Assembly: GCA_025558095.1 (NCBI GenBank)
Contig: JAIVFI010000036.1
Span: 186,001 to 250,000 of the forward strand
Reading direction: 5' to 3'
Length of the DNA: 64,000 nucleotides
DNA from: Hyaloraphidium curvatum
Lineage: Eukaryota; Monoblepharomycota; Hyaloraphidiomycetes; Hyaloraphidiales; Hyaloraphidiaceae
Shown here: positions 35,712 through 44,640 of the stretch, piece after piece
Layout: each line of letters starts with the position of its first letter
Numbering within the stretch: the stretch's first letter is position 1
Made by a program: the position numbers and the translations under genes
Notes under the pieces: generated by a model
Seen by the model: only the letters and a program-made list of their open reading frames with translations
The model's database searches: none
What the model was told of the DNA's origin: nothing

Positions 35712-37103
35712 TCAATCTATCGCCTGGGGCGAATTCCTCATGCGCTCCAGAACGTACTGGAGCGGCGCAAGGTCCATCTCGGGAACGCCCCGCGCGAGCA
35801 GCTCGGCGACGTCCTCCTCCAGCAGCCGCAGGTCGCACGGCATGCTGGATTCGACGGCGCGGTAGAGCTGCGCGCGGCCCTGGATGTGCCTCGACCCCGA
35901 GAGCAGCACAAATGCCCACAGGGCGCCGACCTGGATCGCGTTGCTCTGCGGGGTCGCGAAGGCATCCCGGCGCTCCACGTTTAGGATGTTGCGCGCCATG
36001 CGCACGAGCACCTCGATGTCGGTCGCGGGGCGGAGGTAGTCGTCCAGATCGACGCCCATCAGGGGCTGCGCGGCCAGCATGGCGCGCACGTCGGCGCGCG
36101 AGAGCAGGGCACCGCCGCGGTACATGTCGACGAAGACGTCGTCATCGCTCGGCGGGTCCGGCAGCCCGTCCTCGGCGGGCTGTGACGCGAGCTTGGTGAG
36201 CATGTGGCCCGGCGAGGAGATCATGTCGATCGGCACACCGCATCGGTCCGCGACCACCTTGAAGACGAGCCCGAGTGTGATGGGGATGCCAGTCCTGTCG
36301 GCCACGACGCGGTCCAGCATCGAGTTCTTGGCCGTGTAGAAGCCGACCGATTCGGCGCCCTGGAAGCGCTCGGTCTCTGCCAGATACGAGGCGATGGCCT
36401 CGGCGCGCGCGACCGGGGTGGCGTCCGGCGGCAGCGGCAGGTCGCGGGCGTTTGCGGCAAAGGCCTCGATTTTGGACTCGATGTCTTGCTGGTAATCGAC
36501 GTGCGGGTGCGCAAAGAGCGTGAACAGCGAGGCGGCCAGCAGCAGCGGCACCGGCTCCTCGGCCACGTCCCCGCCGGCGGCCCGGATTTCTGCGTGACGG
36601 CGAACCGTTCTCAGCTGGCGAATGACCCAGCCCCTGCGGATCGAGCCCAGGGCGGTCTCTGCCGCCTCGCGCAGCAGCTGCAGGTGCGGGTGCCCGTACG
36701 ATCCCTTTATCGCGGCCAGCAGCGCGTCGAACGCGTCCAGGCCGAACTCGGCGGCGAACTCGCCGATTCGACGCGTCCGATCCTGGGTCGGTGCGTTGAC
36801 GATGGCGCGCAGCTCTGCCAGGGCGCGCCTGTCGGCGAGGTGGCGGGCGCGGTACAGCAGAAACTCGGCCGAGTAGGCGAACGGCGCGGGCGGCGGCGGG
36901 TTTGCCAGGATGGGCGCGCCGTGTCTCCAACGGCGGGCGGCGAGCTCCGACCAGCGCCTGCGGGGGGCGGGTGCACCGTCGACTGCGCCGCACACGAACT
37001 CCCGCCACGCGGCGCACGTGCCCGACAGCGCTGCGAGCTCGGCATGGCCTAGCTGGGAGACCAGCGGCGACCAGAGGTCGGGCGGGAAGCGAGGATGTGC
37101 CAT
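35712..37103 (-). CDS. FBXO21-like F-box protein with SirB1/transglutaminase-like domain
   Basis: An intronless 463-codon gene. The N-terminal F-box (DLWSPLVSQLGHAELAALSG) would bind SKP1 in an SCF ubiquitin ligase. The C-terminal half has the SirB1/transglutaminase-like domain found in FBXO21: NSMLDRVVADRTGIPITLGL followed by DMISSPGHML and DVFVDMYRGGALL. Vertebrate FBXO21 also has a YccV domain, which is absent here. The absence of introns is unusual among its neighbours, and the coding GC content is high. Divergent from the SWIRM gene with 125 bp between the starts. Confidence 0.87.
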   Translation of the reverse strand: MAHPRFPPDLWSPLVSQLGHAELAALSGTCAAWREFVCGAVDGAPAPRRRWSELAARRWRHGAPILANPPPPAPFAYSAEFLLYRARHLADRRALAELRAIVNAPTQDRTRRIGEFAAEFGLDAFDALLAAIKGSYGHPHLQLLREAAETALGSIRRGWVIRQLRTVRRHAEIRAAGGDVAEEPVPLLLAASLFTLFAHPHVDYQQDIESKIEAFAANARDLPLPPDATPVARAEAIASYLAETERFQGAESVGFYTAKNSMLDRVVADRTGIPITLGLVFKVVADRCGVPIDMISSPGHMLTKLASQPAEDGLPDPPSDDDVFVDMYRGGALLSRADVRAMLAAQPLMGVDLDDYLRPATDIEVLVRMARNILNVERRDAFATPQSNAIQVGALWAFVLLSGSRHIQGRAQLYRAVESSMPCDLRLLEEDVAELLARGVPEMDLAPLQYVLERMRNSPQAID

Positions 37104-37228
37104 GTAAATGTTTGTTTGGCCTTCGGCTAACCGGGGGTTTATTCGGGTATCACGCGGTTAGGATCCCCCAGGGCCATCCGCAGCGGCCGCAGCAGTTCGG
37201 GGGACCGCTGACGACGCCGCAGTCCCCG

Positions 37229-38782
37229 ATGCCGATGCCGACGCCCGCGATGCCCTCCGCGGGAATGGCCGGCGCGGCGTGGGACGGCGGCGGCGGCTCG
37301 CAGCGCCTCCTTTTCCGCGGCGATTCGCGCCCGGCGTCCCCGCGCGCCCGCTTCGGCTCGCCCGCCGACGCCGATGCCGACGCCGCCGGCGGCGCGCGGC
37401 TGCGCAGTCCGGCCCGCGAGCCGCCCGGCCACGCCTCGCCGCGCTCGCCCGAGTCGGCCGCGCGCTCCGACGACGAGAAGCTGCTGACGCCCGGCCACCG
37501 CCGCAAGTCGCTGAACCCCACGCGGTCGCTGCCGGCCGCGCCCGCGGACGAAGAGGCGCGTGCGAAGGAGGGCTTCGTGGTGCTGGACGTGTACACGCAG
37601 CTGCGGTGCGTGCATGCGCCATGCGCCTGTCAGATCGCCTGACTCGCCCCTCCCTTTGCATTCCGCCGCCGCCAGCACGAATCCCAACGATCTGCTGTAC
37701 GACAGGGACCAGCGGAGGCGGGAGGACGAGTACCAGAAGCGGATGGACTACACTTTCAACCCCGTGCCGGCCCCCGCACCGGGCGGCCCCGTGCCGGGCT
37801 CGGCACCGAACTCGGCGACCCACAGCCCCGCAAAGCCGGGTTCGTCGACCCCCGCGATGGGCTCGTCGCCGCCGGCCGGCACGCAGCCCTACCGCCGCGC
37901 GCGGATCGCGGAGGACGGCTTCCCCCCCCATCCCCCCGTGCACACGTCGCATCGGGCCGTCGACGCGCACCCGCGGCGCGATCGCGCCGACAGCGGCCCG
38001 CGCCGCGCATCCTCGCCCCGCCGCAGGCAGTCCTTCTCCCACGGCAGCTCGAGATCTCCGCCGGGGGCCGAGAACGACGACGACTCGGAGGACCGCTCGC
38101 TGTCATCCGAGTCCTCCTCCTCCGGCGGGTCGCCGAACAGCGCCCGCCCCCCCGCCCCGCGGAAGCGCAAGGACAGTGCCGGCGAGGCCGGCGGGCCTCC
38201 GAAGCGACGAGGCCGCAAACCCAACGTCAGCAAGCTCGTCCGCGAGTTCCTTCCCAACCACACCAAGGTCCTCAACGGCGTGGACCAGCTCAGCGCAAAC
38301 TTGAGCGACTTCCAGAAGCTCAAGAGCGACGCATCCGAAACCGCGGGCGCCCCCATGGTGACCTGGAAAGGTGCGTTCGGGCGCGTTGACAGATGCATGC
38401 GGGGAGCAAATGACTCATTCTCCTTTGCCACCGCACGTCAACCGTCATCCGTCGCCGCCTATCCCGCAAACCGCAACCCATAGGCCACCCGCTTCCCGTC
38501 GACGAGGGCCAGGAAGGCTACTACCTCCTGACCGAGGAGGAGAAGCAGATCTGCTCGATCCTGCGGCTGCTCCCCGTGCAGTACCTGGCCATCAAGGACG
38601 CACTCCTCTCGGCGTACGAGCAGCGCAAGACGCCCTTCAAGAAGCGCGAGGCACAGAAGATGTGCCGCGTCGACGTCAACAAGACGGCAAAGGTATACGA
38701 CTGGTTTCGGTACCTAGGCTGGCTCCCTCCGGAAGTCTTCGGTGCGCCGCCCGCGCCGCCCGTCCGCCGTGCGCGCCGCTGA
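37229..38782 (+). CDS. SWIRM-domain protein, FUN19-like
   Basis: A long Pro/Ser/Arg-rich, low-complexity N-terminus includes RRRGRKPNVSK-like basic patches. The C-terminus is a SWIRM domain: LTEEEKQICSILRLLPVQYL, AIKDALLSAYEQRKTPFKKR, CRVDVNKTAKVYDWFRYLGW. SWIRM domains bind chromatin or DNA in histone-modifying complexes. The lack of ZZ and SANT domains argues against ADA2 and for the fungal FUN19/Laf-type proteins. Introns lie near 37602-37676 and 38370-38485. The ATG at 37229 is the first clear one, but the first exon could start further upstream. Chromatin function is inferred from the family. Confidence 0.78.
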
Positions 38783-39101: not shown

Positions 39102-42100
39102 CTACTGGAAACTGCCGTGGTCCACCCGGATCCCGTTCTGGTCGTGCGCATCGTCCGGCGCCGCGCGGTGCGCGCCCTCGGCGCCGCGCAGCCCGCCCGC
39201 CGCGATGAGGCGCTCCATCAGCTGGCGCTGCGACATCTTTGCCCCTCCCGCGGGCTCGTCCTCGGCCGCGGCGTCGCCTGCGCCGTCGGCTTCGGGTGCC
39301 ACGCCGGAGACGATGGGCCCCGACGTGGCGCGGAAGGGCCGGGAGAGGTCGCCCGAGGACCCGGCGTGCGGCGGCGGCGGCGGGGCCAAATTGAAGAGCG
39401 CCGACGACGCGGCGTCCCCGGGCGAAAAGTTCATGGAGGAGGCGAGGTCGATGAGGGCTTGCATGCTGCCCCACTCGATGATCTTGCGCTCAAGCCAGAC
39501 CTGGCGACCGATCGCCGGTCAGGGACAACACACTGGGTAACAGCAGCGAATGACGCACCAAGCTGACGGGCTTGGTAAGGAAATCGTTGCACCCCGCCGA
39601 CAGCGCGGCGTCGCGGTCTTGCGGCAGCGACGAGGCCGTGAGGGCCACGATGACCACGTCCGGGGACAGGAACCCGAACATGCCGGTCTGCGCCTGCTCC
39701 TCGCGGCGCTGGCGCTCGAGCTCGCGGATCGTGCGCGTGGCCTCGATGCCGTCCATCACGGGCATCACGATGTCCATCAGCACGAGGTGGTAGCGCCCGT
39801 TCTTCCACTTTTCCACGGCTTGCGCGCCGTCGTTGGCCACGGAGCAGTTGATACCGCGCTTCTTGAGGAACGTCGACAGGATGGTCTGGTTGATCGGGTT
39901 GTCTGGCATGGGGAAAGCCGTCAGCCGGAATGACCCTTGCCCCCTTACTTAACCCACCTTCGGCGATCAGCACGTTGATGGGCGGCCGCACCGGCGCCGA
40001 CGCCGCCTGCACCGCGTCCCCGCCCGCCGCATCCGCGCCCTCGGCCGCCTTCTTCCCCTTCTTGGATGCCCGGTGCGCCTTGCCCTCACCCGCCGTCTTG
40101 CCGTCCTTTGCCGCCTCCTCGGCCGGCGCGGGCACCGCCGCCGCCGCCTTGTCCTCCGCCGGCGCCGGCGCCTCCGCGGCTTTGGCCACCTCCCCCTCCT
40201 TCTTGCGCCTCGCGAGCGACGACACCGCCCTCCCCTCCTCCTCGTCGTCCGACTGCGGCGCCTGCGCCTCGCCCAGGTTGCCCAGCACGTGCCGCAGCGC
40301 CGCGAGCAGCTTCCTCGGGCCCACGGGCTTGGTGACCACCAGAATCCTCCCCGCGAGGCTGCTCTGTGCGGCCTCGGTGGACTGCAAAAACTCGTACGCG
40401 CGCAGCTCGTGCGAGGGCGAGGCGAAGCACACCACGACCGACTGCGATTTCGAGTCGGCGCGGTGCTGGATGGCGGCGTCTAGGAGGGAAAAGTCGTCGT
40501 CCACGAGGATGGCGGACTGCATGCGGCGCTCGCGCGCGGTGCCGCGGAGGCCCGAGGAGGTGACGGTGGCGCGGTTGTCGAAGACGTCGAGCTGCTTGTT
40601 GATCTCGGACACCGAGTTGGTAGCGAGGTACGTCAGGTCGGTCCCTGGAAAGCGCACGGCTGTCAGCACACGGTTTTCCAGCGGGCCGCAGGCACCGCCC
40701 ACCAAGGTTCTCCAGGTACTGCGTCAGGTTCTGCGTGAACTGCGAGTGGCTCGGGGTGAGCAGCGCCACCCTGAACCCTTCGAGCACCCCCGCGAACCCC
40801 AGCAGCTCCTCCGGGGTGGGCTGCACCAGGGGATCCTCCTTCCGCCCGAAATCCTTGCCGGCGGCGGGCACCTCGCGCTGCACCACCTCCATCTCGCATT
40901 CGAGCTCGATGGTCGAGTTGTCGGTGCGCACGGCGCGCTCCAGGCGGCCGCCGACAAACTCGACCAGCACGTCCGTGATGGCCGCGCCGACCTCGGAGAC
41001 GCGGTCCTCGAGGGTGGGGTCGGGGTTGAAGACGATCTGGAAGGTGACGGTGGTGAGGAACTGGTTCGAGAGGGGGGTGGGGGGGGCCGGGGCCGAGCCG
41101 GAGGGGGCATCGGCGCCGGCGCGGGCCGAGGAGAGGGAGGGGGATTTGTCGGCCGCGGTGCCGGGGCCCTCGGTGGGGCTGTCGCGGGCCAGCCGCGGGG
41201 GCGAGGTGCGCAGGTTGAGCTCGACGCGCGTGTCGGCCTGCGCGAGCTCGAGCGCCGACCCGAGGAGCTGGGCAAGGCGAGGGGTAAGCACGATCTCACT
41301 GGCGGCAGGGTGGAGCCCACCTTGAAGAGGATCTGGGTCATCAGCTCCTTGTCGCCCACGACGAGGTACAGGTGCTGCCTCCCCCGCTCGACCGGGCAGC
41401 TGACCACGAGCTCGAGCCCCTTTTCGTCCGCGACGCCCGACAGCGCGTCGCCGATGTTTTCCGCGACGGACGCGAGGTCAAACTCGGTGTGCCTGGGGCC
41501 CCATTCCATGGCGTGCAGCCCAAACTCGTCCGCGTCCACGTCGTGCATCCGCGTGAGCAGGTCCGCGAGGTGGCGCACGTTGCCCAGCGACGTCTCGACG
41601 GCCGCGACCACGCGGGCGTGGTGCAGGTTCAGGGCCGGGTTCATGGGGTGCAGCGAGGCCGTGTGGTGGACCGTCGTCGAGACGGCCTTGAGGGTCTCGC
41701 GGACCTCGGACATGAGCGCCTGCAGCGACGAGCGCTGGTGCACTGCGGCGGCGTAGAAGCGGTCGCGGGTGGCGTCGACCTCTGCTGCGTGCAGGTCGAG
41801 CGTGGCGCGCGACGCGGCCAGCACGGCCCACAGGCCGGCGTGCACGAACGCGACCGACAGGTCCATCGCGACGACGACGCCGATCGCGACGGGGCGGAAC
41901 AGGCCGGCCAGCACGAGCACGACCAGCGCGGCCAGGCGCGCCAGGGCTGCGGCGGCGTCGAGCAGCGAGGCGTCGCCGGGGTCCAGCGCGCCGCCGGCGA
42001 CCAGCCGCACCGTGCGGTGGGCGACCGCGGCGCTGGCCGACGCGAGCAGCAGCGTGAAGAGCGCGGCGAGGCGAGCGTGGCCGCGCGCGACCAGCGAGCA

Positions 42101-42559
42101 CACCGAGATCGGGCCCGATGCGGCGAGGCCGTGCGAGGGCGGCGAGCACCACAGCATCGACGCGGCGACGGCCAGCGCGCACGCCGAGCGCAGGCCGGCG
42201 GCGGCGGCGAGCCCCACGCGCGTGCGCACCGCGGCGACCTCGAGGCGGCGGGCGGCGCCGCCCACACCGGGCCCCGGGGCGCGCAGCCGCGGCGGCAGGA
42301 AGCCGTCGAGCCACGCGAGCGCCGCCGCGAGGGGCGCCGGCGGGTCGAGCGCCGCGCGCGCCACAGAGTCGGCGAGCAGCCGCGGCAGCGCGTCGAGCAG
42401 CCGCGGCAGCGCGTCGAGCAGCGAGTGCGATCGCGGCTCCGCGGCATCGCCCGGCACAGCGCGCCCCGCCGCGCCCTCCGGCGTCGCGGAGCCGCCGCCC
42501 GTGGGACGCCGTCGGTGCCGCAGCGCGGGGCTGGCGCGGCCCCCGCCGGCGACTTCCAT
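39102..42559 (-). CDS. SSK1: Membrane-anchored degenerate hybrid histidine kinase with Ssk1-type receiver
   Basis: Ssk1 relays osmotic and oxidative stress from a phosphorelay to the HOG MAP kinase cascade. The C-terminal receiver is clearly Ssk1-like: INVLIAEDNPINQTILSTFL, phospho-Asp in LVLMDIVMPVMDG, ALTASSLPQDR and CNDFLTKPVSLVWLERKIIE. In front is a second, degenerate receiver (AILVDDDF, ILVVTKPVG). Further N-terminal are several hydrophobic helices and a kinase-like region. The HisKA-like helix reads ALMSEVRETLKAV, lacking the His of SHEIRTPL, and the N-box is LLGSALELA with Ser for Asn. Introns lie near 39495-39550, 39908-39958, 40647-40706 and 41288-41338. Confidence 0.83.
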
Positions 42560-42755
42560 CGGGCGGCGTTGGGGTTCTCGGGCAGAGGGACCTCAATCGG
42601 CAGTCAGGGGACGACGCGACCGCAAACATCGACCGCCGCCTTAAACATGTCCCGCCACTTCGAGGCCGATTCCAAGGCACGCACCGCCGCATCGTGCTCT
42701 CCACACCGCCGTCCCGCTGACCCGCCCGCGCCCGCCCCGCCGCGGAACCCCCTAC

Positions 42756-44640
42756 ATGGCACGTGACACCGGTCCCACCCTTCGCGCCCCTCCACAACCC
42801 CTCAAGTTCTGGCGGATCGCCGTCGACGGCTCTTCCACGCTCGTCGAGTACGGCGCCATCGGGGCCGCCCCGAGGCCGTCCAAGAAGGACCACGCCGACG
42901 CAAAGGCGGCCCAAGCGTTCGCGGGTACCTCGAAGCGCCGCACGCTCCTGCGACCAGGGGAACTCATCGCCTTCCATCTCCCCGCTGTGCCAGACAAGAT
43001 GATCAAGGAGAAGCTGGGCAAGGGCTACGTGGAGGTCGGCGGCGGGGCGGAGGCCACCGCGTCTCCCGCGGACTCAGCACCGGCCAAGCGCAAGCAGGGG
43101 GCCAAGAAGGCCAAGGAGGAGCCCATCGAGATCGAGGACGACGACGAGGAGGAGGAGCCCAAGACTGGAAAAGGCAAGGCGAAGCGCAAGGCCGCGCCGG
43201 CAAAGGCCAAGGCCCCGCCCGCGAAGCGCGCCAAGCCCGCCGCCCCGGCCCCCGCGGACCCCACCCTCGAAGACGACGACGAGGACGGTCCGCAGGACCT
43301 TGCCCCCCCGTCGGACATCCCTCCGCCCAAGGCGCTCCCCAACCCCGGCGACACGATGAAGGTCGCCTCGCACTCCTCCTCCGCCCAATACGTCCTCAAG
43401 CACCACGCCGACGGCTCCTTCTCGTGCTCCTGCCCCGCGTGGCGCAACCAGGGCGGCGCCCCGCCCGATGCGCGCACGTGCAAACACCTCCGTGAGGCGG
43501 TCGGCGACGCGCACGAGGACGCCCGGCTGCGCGCGAGGGGTGCCGATCCGGAGAAGCCCGTCTCGCGCAAGCCGGCCGGCTCGTCGTCGTCCGCCGGAGG
43601 GGGAAGCAAGGCCAAGAAAAAGGCCCCCGCGCTGCTCCTGGCAAACACCTACGACGGCGCCGACCCCGCGGGCTTCCACCTCTCCGAGAAGCTCGACGGC
43701 GTGCGGGCGTTCTGGGACCCCGCGGCCCGCCTCCTGCTCTCGCGGCTGGGCAACCCGTTCCCCGCCCCCGCGTGGTTCCTCGACGCCCTGCCCGCCGATC
43801 GGAGCCTGGACGGGGAGCTGTTCCTCGGCCGGGGCATGTTCTCGCGGACCGTGTCCGCGGTCAAGACCGCGGGCGGGGCGTGGGAGGGGGTCGAGTACAG
43901 GCTGTTCGACGTGCCGAGCGAGGGCGCGAAGCCGTTCGAGGAGAGGATGGAGGTGCGTTTCCCGCGCGGCCGGCCGGTGTTGGTGCGATCGCTGAGGTGC
44001 TCGGCCGCAGGTGCTCAAGGGGATCGTCAAGGCCGCCTCGGGCTCCCGCGCCAAGCTCGTCTTTGTCGAGCAGACGCCCTGCACGTCGCGCGAGCACCTC
44101 GACGCCGAGCTCGCGCGGGTGCTCAGGCTCGGCGGGGAAGGGCTGATGCTCCGCAAGCCGGGATCCAAGTACGAGGGGAGGCGCTCCGCAACGCTACTGA
44201 AGCTCAAGAAATTCTACGATGCTGAGGCCAAGGTGGTCGGGTACCAGCCGGGGAAGGGCAAGTACAAGGGGATGACGGGCAGCCTCGAGGCCGAGATGGA
44301 GTGCGGCAAGCGGTTTTTTGTCGGATCGGGCATGTCGGACGCCGAGAGGAAGTCGCCGCCGAAGGTGGGAAGCGCCACGACGGCGTTCGGTTTACAGGCT
44401 GACCGGGTCGTCCACAGATCGGCACCATCATCTCGTACGCTTTCCAGGAGCTCACGGACGACGGCGTGCCGCGCTTCCCAACGTACCGAGGTCCATCCTC
44501 CGTGGCCGCTCGCGATCGGCATTCCACTAACCGTCGACCCGATTGCAGGCGTCGCACTGGACAAGAAAAAGGCCAAGGATGCGGTAGTACGCACCGTCTC
44601 CAAGGCGGACGACGACGAGAGCCTCGAGGACGAGCAGTGA
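42756..44640 (+). CDS. ATP-dependent DNA ligase with WGR and SWIM domains
   Basis: Domains in order: WGR (KFWRIAVDGSSTLVEYGAIG, completed as AQAFADKMIKEKLGKGYVEV after removing intron 42925-42993); a Lys/Ala/Glu-rich linker; a SWIM zinc finger (FSCSCPAWRNQ then CKHLREAV); and a compact ligase core with lysyl-AMP motif SEKLDGVRAFWD, GELFLGRGMF, EYRLFDVP, EGLMLRKPGSKYEG and LLKLKKFYDAEAKVVGY, followed by an OB domain. It is smaller than replicative LIG1. WGR and SWIM suggest targeting to damaged DNA or PARP-like partners (inference). Introns also lie near 43950-44012, 44374-44420 and 44495-44550. Confidence 0.87.

Follow-up and report, generated by a model that had tools for sequence, protein, structure and literature searches.

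A degenerate histidine kinase with a putative membrane anchor, joined to an Ssk1-type receiver in Hyaloraphidium curvatum, and its bearing on the ancestry of Ssk1

We have examined a stretch of 64,000 nucleotides of Hyaloraphidium curvatum DNA (assembly GCA_025558095.1, contig JAIVFI010000036.1, positions 186,001 to 250,000; hereafter the window, in whose numbering coordinates are given), which carries at 39102..42559 of its minus strand a gene for a protein ending in a receiver of the Ssk1 type, the response regulator of the high-osmolarity glycerol (HOG) pathway. As judged by sequence comparisons and predicted models, the protein has the domain order and fold of a hybrid histidine kinase that has lost its catalytic residues, its last receiver is intact, and this arrangement is conserved in the non-ascomycete Ssk1s examined. 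We think it probable that this protein, the sole Ssk1 orthologue detected in the assembly, is a dead hybrid kinase (membrane helices, DHp, CA, pseudoreceiver and receiver, in that order), that its form is most likely the ancestral one, and that parts of this form were lost later in Basidiomycota and Ascomycota.

The gene and its Ssk1-type receiver

The gene is read from five exons (42559-41321, 41267-40703, 40644-39958, 39902-39559 and 39500-39102), which splice in one frame running from 42559 to 39102 and encode 1077 residues, in agreement with the limits given in an earlier note on this DNA. The four introns are GT-AG and 53-58 nt long, and the start is the first ATG, upstream of which the frame is open for only 11 codons. 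The closest relative among those listed is a metagenome protein of 943 residues (P0001), identical at 371 of 896 aligned residues; the alignment runs through all four exon junctions, which fall at residues 413, 602, 831 and 945, inside conserved domains. By part, identity between the two proteins is 120/146 in the last receiver, 61/149 in the first receiver, 58/172 in the CA-like domain, 28/75 in the DHp and 31/149 in the anchor.

The last receiver (REC2; 39438..39979, residues 824-966, containing introns 3 and 4) was recognized by Pfam (PF00072, residues 826-948, E 1.7e-23), and its best sequence match in the PDB was Saccharomyces cerevisiae Ssk1 (5kbx_B, E 1.9e-35). It has the acidic pair E830 and D831, the phospho-acceptor D874 (39772-39774), the sequence ALTA, the KP motif as TKP, and the ending EWGSMQALID; a crude pattern for the receiver motifs (acidic pair, phospho-Asp, Thr and Lys) fits 100 of 121 aligned Ssk1 rows. 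The accessible text of PMC8510515 describes a long insertion, 38 +/- 16 residues, in the alpha3-beta4 loop of Ssk1 receivers. The alignment to 5kbx_B shows an insertion in REC2 as well, shorter than that of yeast. In a tree of receivers, those of 23 Ssk1s, yeast and mould proteins included, formed one clade (support 100/99), from which 8 receivers of hybrid kinases in the same assembly stood apart, so that the complete Ssk1-type receiver reported earlier can be upheld. The tree leaves the sister of the Ssk1 clade unresolved, and no parent kinase group can be named from it.

The kinase-like part, the first receiver and the predicted anchor

A Pfam scan of the whole protein matched only the last receiver; ahead of it neither a kinase nor a second receiver was recognized. 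Kinase or receiver matches by Pfam in the upstream parts of 28 aligned relatives were scattered and single-member, with E values of 0.037 or worse, and were set aside. We name the upstream domains from hidden Markov models (HMMs), profile comparisons and predicted structures. We built a histidine-kinase HMM with hybrid kinases found in this assembly as seeds. It matched the window protein at E 2e-6 over residues 282-446, from the H-box to just beyond the N-box, and a larger version (66 rows, from both strands of the loci) did so at E 5.8e-8 over residues 281-444. The source file of the larger HMM held the Ssk1 locus itself; none of the 66 rows came from that locus, and a rerun without it gave the same numbers. 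Applied to 121 Ssk1 upstream regions, the larger HMM reached E<1e-3 in 31 and E<1e-2 in 57. The best E values in the controls were 1.8 for the 121 regions reversed, 0.032 for 1210 shuffled sequences, 7.0 for 120 upstream regions from Pezizomycotina and 1.5 for 120 from Saccharomycotina. When the Ssk1 upstream profile was compared with a kinase profile, the two aligned over 228 columns (probability 95.4, E 1.7e-8), with LVEFVGGRLE of the window protein paired to ELAVLFGGEIG of the kinases, past the site of the lost ATP lid. Also, the top Foldseek match of an AlphaFold2 model of P0001 was full-length ShkA (6qrj; E 1.6e-19, 623 columns); further matches included phytochrome A, the catalytic domain of ETR1, RetS and DivL.

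By these comparisons the protein is predicted to have the DHp and CA folds of a pseudo-histidine-kinase, the full-length model being that of its relative P0001. The DHp-like helical hairpin (41531..41758, residues ~268-343) is placed by the helices of a model of exon 1 and by the start of the HMM match, and the HATPase-like (CA) domain (40827..41512, residues ~350-560), interrupted by intron 1, has in place of the ATP lid a low-complexity stretch. The HMM alignment sets LMSEVRETL (41690..41716, residues 282-290) where kinases have xSHEIRTPL, with Ser284 at the column of the phospho-His, and His occurs there in 0/121 rows. The degenerate N-box, VVGDKELMTQILFKLLGSALELAQAD (41232..41362, residues 400-425, spanning intron 1), has K413 and S417 at its two Asn columns, where Asn is kept in 7/121 and 3/121 rows, respectively. 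The G1 box DxGxG is missing from the catalytic region of the window protein and present in 1/121 rows; the GDE Asp is kept in 99/121. Thus the sequence lacks the phospho-His, N-box Asn and G1 box expected of an active hybrid histidine kinase, and self-phosphorylation is very unlikely because of these losses, conserved as the upstream part is. These results bear out the earlier reading of a HisKA-like helix without its phospho-His (given there as MSEVRETL) and of an HATPase-like region with Ser for the N-box Asn and no G boxes, to which K413 may be added; the kinase folds for which that note had proposed a search by structure prediction were found in the P0001 model.

Between the kinase-like part and REC2 lies a first receiver (REC1; 40277..40778, residues ~577-724, interrupted by intron 2), joined to REC2 by a low-complexity linker (39989..40276, residues 725-820) that is recognized from the sequence and corresponds to a low-confidence stretch of the P0001 model. 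Residues 480-630 of that model show the five-fold beta-alpha order of a receiver, and across the 121 rows the acidic pair is lost, D651 is kept in 120, K707 in 121, and Thr at column 676 in 112, the window protein having Ala there. REC1 is therefore best modelled as a pseudoreceiver, a receiver fold without the key residues, much as the earlier note had it when it called the first receiver degenerate. Row alignment places a conserved Asp triplet, D650-D652 (40493..40501), at the end of strand 3. Its middle residue is nearly invariant though the acidic pair has gone, that is, it is conserved without a magnesium site, which suggests for the triplet a role other than phosphorylation. The last receiver takes up most of the rows labelled VIA, which therefore hardly probe REC1 and the anchor.

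Ahead of the DHp, at 41795..42259 (residues ~101-255), about four hydrophobic helices form a predicted membrane anchor, which accords with the several N-terminal helices noticed previously. Hydrophobic segments by the Kyte-Doolittle scale begin at residues 115, 162, 212 and 230 with a cut-off of 1.4, and three remain at 1.6; the exon 1 model has helices at 101-138, 154-188, 198-221, 235-302 and 309-343. Such segments precede the DHp in 24/27 early-diverging rows (at least two segments in 16) as against 1/94 other rows listed, and precede the receiver in 3/120 Pezizomycotina and 0/120 Saccharomycotina listed. Hydropathy and model suggest that this Ssk1-type protein may be located in a membrane.

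Distribution among fungi and the origin of Ssk1

Homologues were drawn with three queries. The region of the window protein from pseudokinase to receiver gave the first list (best 120 of 616 matches), which is biased toward proteins with the upstream part retained, because that part was in the query. A mould receiver (best 120 of 7201 matches) and a yeast receiver (best 120 of 1926) gave two lists that by their names are Pezizomycotina and Saccharomycotina, respectively, some rows being nameless; both were drawn by the receiver alone and so have no bias toward a kept upstream part. No Mucorales, Mortierella, Blastocladiomycota, Rozella or Taphrinomycotina were noticed by name in the homologue lists. 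An HMM of the upstream part was built from 29 rows, including P0054 and P0056, both placed among basidiomycetes by the tree; rebuilding it without these two, or from the 10 chytrid-type rows only, left the result unchanged. Gonapodya P0010, whose H-box seemed to be misaligned, was kept out of every set used with these HMMs.

The HMM from the 10 chytrid-type rows matched 16/16 zygomycete-grade rows and 94/94 other listed rows (basidiomycete or unnamed), the worst at E 2.4e-8. At E<1e-3 it matched 0/120 of the Pezizomycotina listed (best E 1.2) and 0/120 of the Saccharomycotina listed (best E 0.81), and two further HMMs, one from the 16 zygomycete-grade rows and one from these together with the chytrid-type rows, found 0/240 of the listed ascomycetes (best E 0.0028). 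Profile-profile comparison likewise detected nothing left of the dead kinase or of REC1 in the yeast and mould N-termini of either ascomycete list. An early indication from BLAST coverage, that most relatives share the receiver alone, was overturned by these profile searches. In a tree of 41 proteins, rooted at the midpoint, the window protein and P0001 form a pair (SH-aLRT 93), which belongs to a set of 11 that includes Gonapodya and Spizellomyces-type chytrids. Rows with hydrophobic segments are found on either side of the branch between this set and the other rows. Annotated single proteins of other fungi carry the same domain order. As a separate observation, the Pezizomycotina Ssk1 P0123 has a different block upstream of its receiver, by eye possibly ubiquitin-like, in which Pfam finds nothing.

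By sequence, then, the architecture is widespread and not peculiar to Hyaloraphidium: dead kinase plus pseudoreceiver appears as the form of the listed chytrid, zygomycete-grade and basidiomycete Ssk1s, and the "soluble Ssk1" of textbook accounts as the ascomycete state. The same order was found in other fungi, and Ssk1 N-termini were compared, as the earlier note had called for. Its suggestion that this gene keeps an intermediate form is corrected in that the form is no leftover of a single gene or lineage, and its alternative, a membrane-tethered module of HOG input in this lineage, is putative. Its premise that Ssk1 is normally described as soluble matches the ascomycete state. Its central proposal, that Ssk1 may have evolved from a hybrid histidine kinase, gains from the retained kinase body and from a distribution that fits descent; the direction of change, from kinase to regulator rather than by fusion, rests on parsimony. 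Because the upstream part and the hydrophobic segments are distributed as found among fungi, descent of Ssk1 from a membrane hybrid histidine kinase is most likely.

In the mechanism that we propose, the DHp-like helices would hold the protein as a dimer at the membrane. It would make no phosphate of its own, REC2 receiving phosphate from the single detected (Ypd1-type) HPt, and the unphosphorylated dimer would activate an Ssk2-type MAP kinase kinase kinase. Dead kinase and pseudoreceiver would form the scaffold of the dimer and a platform for docking, and might relay a signal from the membrane; Basidiomycota would have lost the anchor and kept the dead kinase, and Ascomycota would have lost anchor, dead kinase and pseudoreceiver. 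On balance, and with some reserve, we favour a history in which the HOG regulator arose from a membrane hybrid histidine kinase that gave up catalysis and turned into a dimeric switch, bound to the membrane and controlled by phosphate, acting on the MAP kinase kinase kinase. This form would still be at work in chytrids and other early-diverging fungi; Basidiomycota would retain the dead kinase in soluble form, and Ascomycota, in which the pathway was elucidated, the receiver only.

Several observations weigh against this reading. The histidine-kinase HMM misses 64/121 Ssk1 upstream regions at E 1e-2; P0001 itself scores 0.0008 with the larger version and 0.53 with the first, and Gonapodya P0010 scores 6.0. 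The model of window exon 1 alone, which covers the DHp and the first part of the CA, gave no significant kinase match (best E 0.044). The anchor segments are Ala-rich in a GC-rich gene and were called by Kyte-Doolittle, and the anchor is poorly conserved (the 31/149 given above) and of low confidence in the P0001 model. As to Ssk2 itself, a match to the N-terminal part of MEKK4 (MEKK4_N) in the assembly covers 69 residues, with no kinase domain in the stretch scanned. Also, the REC1 profile gave no match to the Ssk1 REC2 profile (probability 0.5), so that it is the model on which the reading of REC1 as a receiver depends; this negative result fits the statement, in the accessible part of PMC7010744, that pseudoreceiver modules such as that of RcsC can be recognizable by structure only.

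Other explanations have to be weighed. It seems to us unlikely that Ssk1 arose by fusion, that is, that an ancient stand-alone receiver and a membrane hybrid kinase of its own origin (DHp-CA-REC1) came together before the divergence of the fungal lineages compared here, the kinase decaying later. The standing of REC2 of the 23 Ssk1s in a clade of its own, away from the 8 hybrid-kinase receivers of the Hyaloraphidium assembly, and the dissimilarity of the REC1 and REC2 profiles would suit such an event; however, active bacterial kinases (ShkA, GacS/BarA and RcsC, in the portion of PMC7010744 available) already show the order DHp-CA-pseudoreceiver-receiver, so no fusion is needed. We can hardly credit that two adjacent genes were merged by splicing on paper: the introns were indeed placed by eye, but the alignment to P0001 crosses every junction, the junctions sit inside conserved domains, and the same order is found in annotated single proteins elsewhere in fungi.

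Two further proposals concern what the upstream part does. That it binds nucleotide, or has phosphatase or another kinase activity, is improbable in view of the His, N-box and DxGxG columns described above and of the low-complexity stretch in place of the ATP lid, although the frequent GDE Asp and the conserved REC1 residues speak for it, as does the regulatory role kept by the pseudokinases DivL and RetS, both among the Foldseek matches. A sensory function is possible, if doubtful, and is compatible with descent from a membrane kinase: the membrane helices might sense osmotic or membrane state and gate REC2 phosphorylation or contact with the MAP kinase kinase kinase through DHp and REC1, or REC1 might bind a ligand as in ShkA, whose pseudoreceiver binds c-di-GMP according to the accessible text of PMC7010744. 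A single helix (residues 235-302) joins the last hydrophobic segment to the DHp in the exon 1 model, and D651, Thr 676 (Ala in the window protein) and K707 of REC1 are widely kept. Yet no extracytoplasmic sensor domain was seen in the window protein, the anchor sequence is poorly conserved, and the hydrophobic segments are nearly absent from basidiomycete and ascomycete rows that have kept the receiver.

Pathway partners, neighbouring genes and known systems

The assembly (31.9 Mb, 55 contigs) was scanned for Ssk1, HPt and kinase matches. We detected a single Ssk1-type receiver and a single HPt frame, which has an H-xx-KGSS motif and is compatible with Ypd1-type phosphorylation of Ssk1, in addition to the MEKK4_N frame. 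The next-best seven receiver matches each share an open frame with an HATPase_c match and are therefore hybrid kinases, and many kinases may funnel into the one HPt. HATPase_c matches listed in the assembly number 39, a figure that counts exons, so that one gene may count twice, and that may include non-kinase HATPase proteins.

On the plus strand, a divergent neighbour at 42738-44225 begins ~180 bp from the Ssk1 start; it matches no Pfam family at E 0.001, though by their motifs parts of it look like an ATP-dependent DNA ligase. A short way beyond the 3' end of the Ssk1 gene, on the opposite strand (38414-38782, plus), lies an exon with a SWIRM domain (PF04433, E 8.5e-14) and a weak Ada2b C-terminal match, and at 35712-37154 (minus) a gene of the transglutaminase-like superfamily (PF13369, E 4.8e-29).

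The architecture is real, conserved and, as far as our searches reach, undescribed. Among the titles and abstracts of the accessible papers listed, none describes Ssk1 as a degenerate hybrid kinase or mentions a membrane-bound version of it. A figure in PMC8510515, as far as its accessible text goes, gives transmembrane percentages per receiver type, so that some Ssk1s may already have been listed there as predicted membrane proteins; the available parts of PMC11706498, PMC11224324 and PMC6944256 hold nothing for or against our reading of Ssk1.

Our results put a name to the region upstream of the Ssk1 receiver in non-ascomycetes, namely a dead kinase followed by a pseudoreceiver, to which a predicted anchor is usually added in the early branches, and would give this response regulator a concrete ancestor. 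They suggest that what yeast-based pathway models depict is a pared-down final state, and they predict the location and mode of dimerization of Ssk1 in chytrids, mycorrhizal fungi and mushrooms.

Phytochromes and subfamily II ethylene receptors likewise have a kinase fold without the full set of His-kinase residues, and the P0001 model matches phytochrome A and ETR1, as noted; these receptors have different input domains and no Ssk1-type receiver. RetS and DivL, bacterial pseudo-histidine-kinases that the same model also matches, regulate by contact through their kinase fold, with different partners. In domain order the closest likeness is to ShkA, GacS/BarA and RcsC, and kinases of the hybrid type that carry a pseudoreceiver between CA and receiver occur widely among bacteria (PMC7010744, accessible part). 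In contrast to the Hyaloraphidium protein, which is without the catalytic boxes, those kinases are active and have the phospho-His, and the Ssk1-type last receiver has an output role, with its phosphate presumably supplied by a separate HPt. Ascomycete Ssk1 (that of S. cerevisiae; the Mcs4 type) is alike at the other end of the protein: the receiver of the P0001 model is 54% identical to 5kbx_B over 140 aligned residues, and the receivers share one clade and the EWG-MQALID ending. It differs in showing, by HMM and profile, no trace of DHp, CA or REC1 in the 240 N-termini listed, a sample that does not include Schizosaccharomyces pombe Mcs4.
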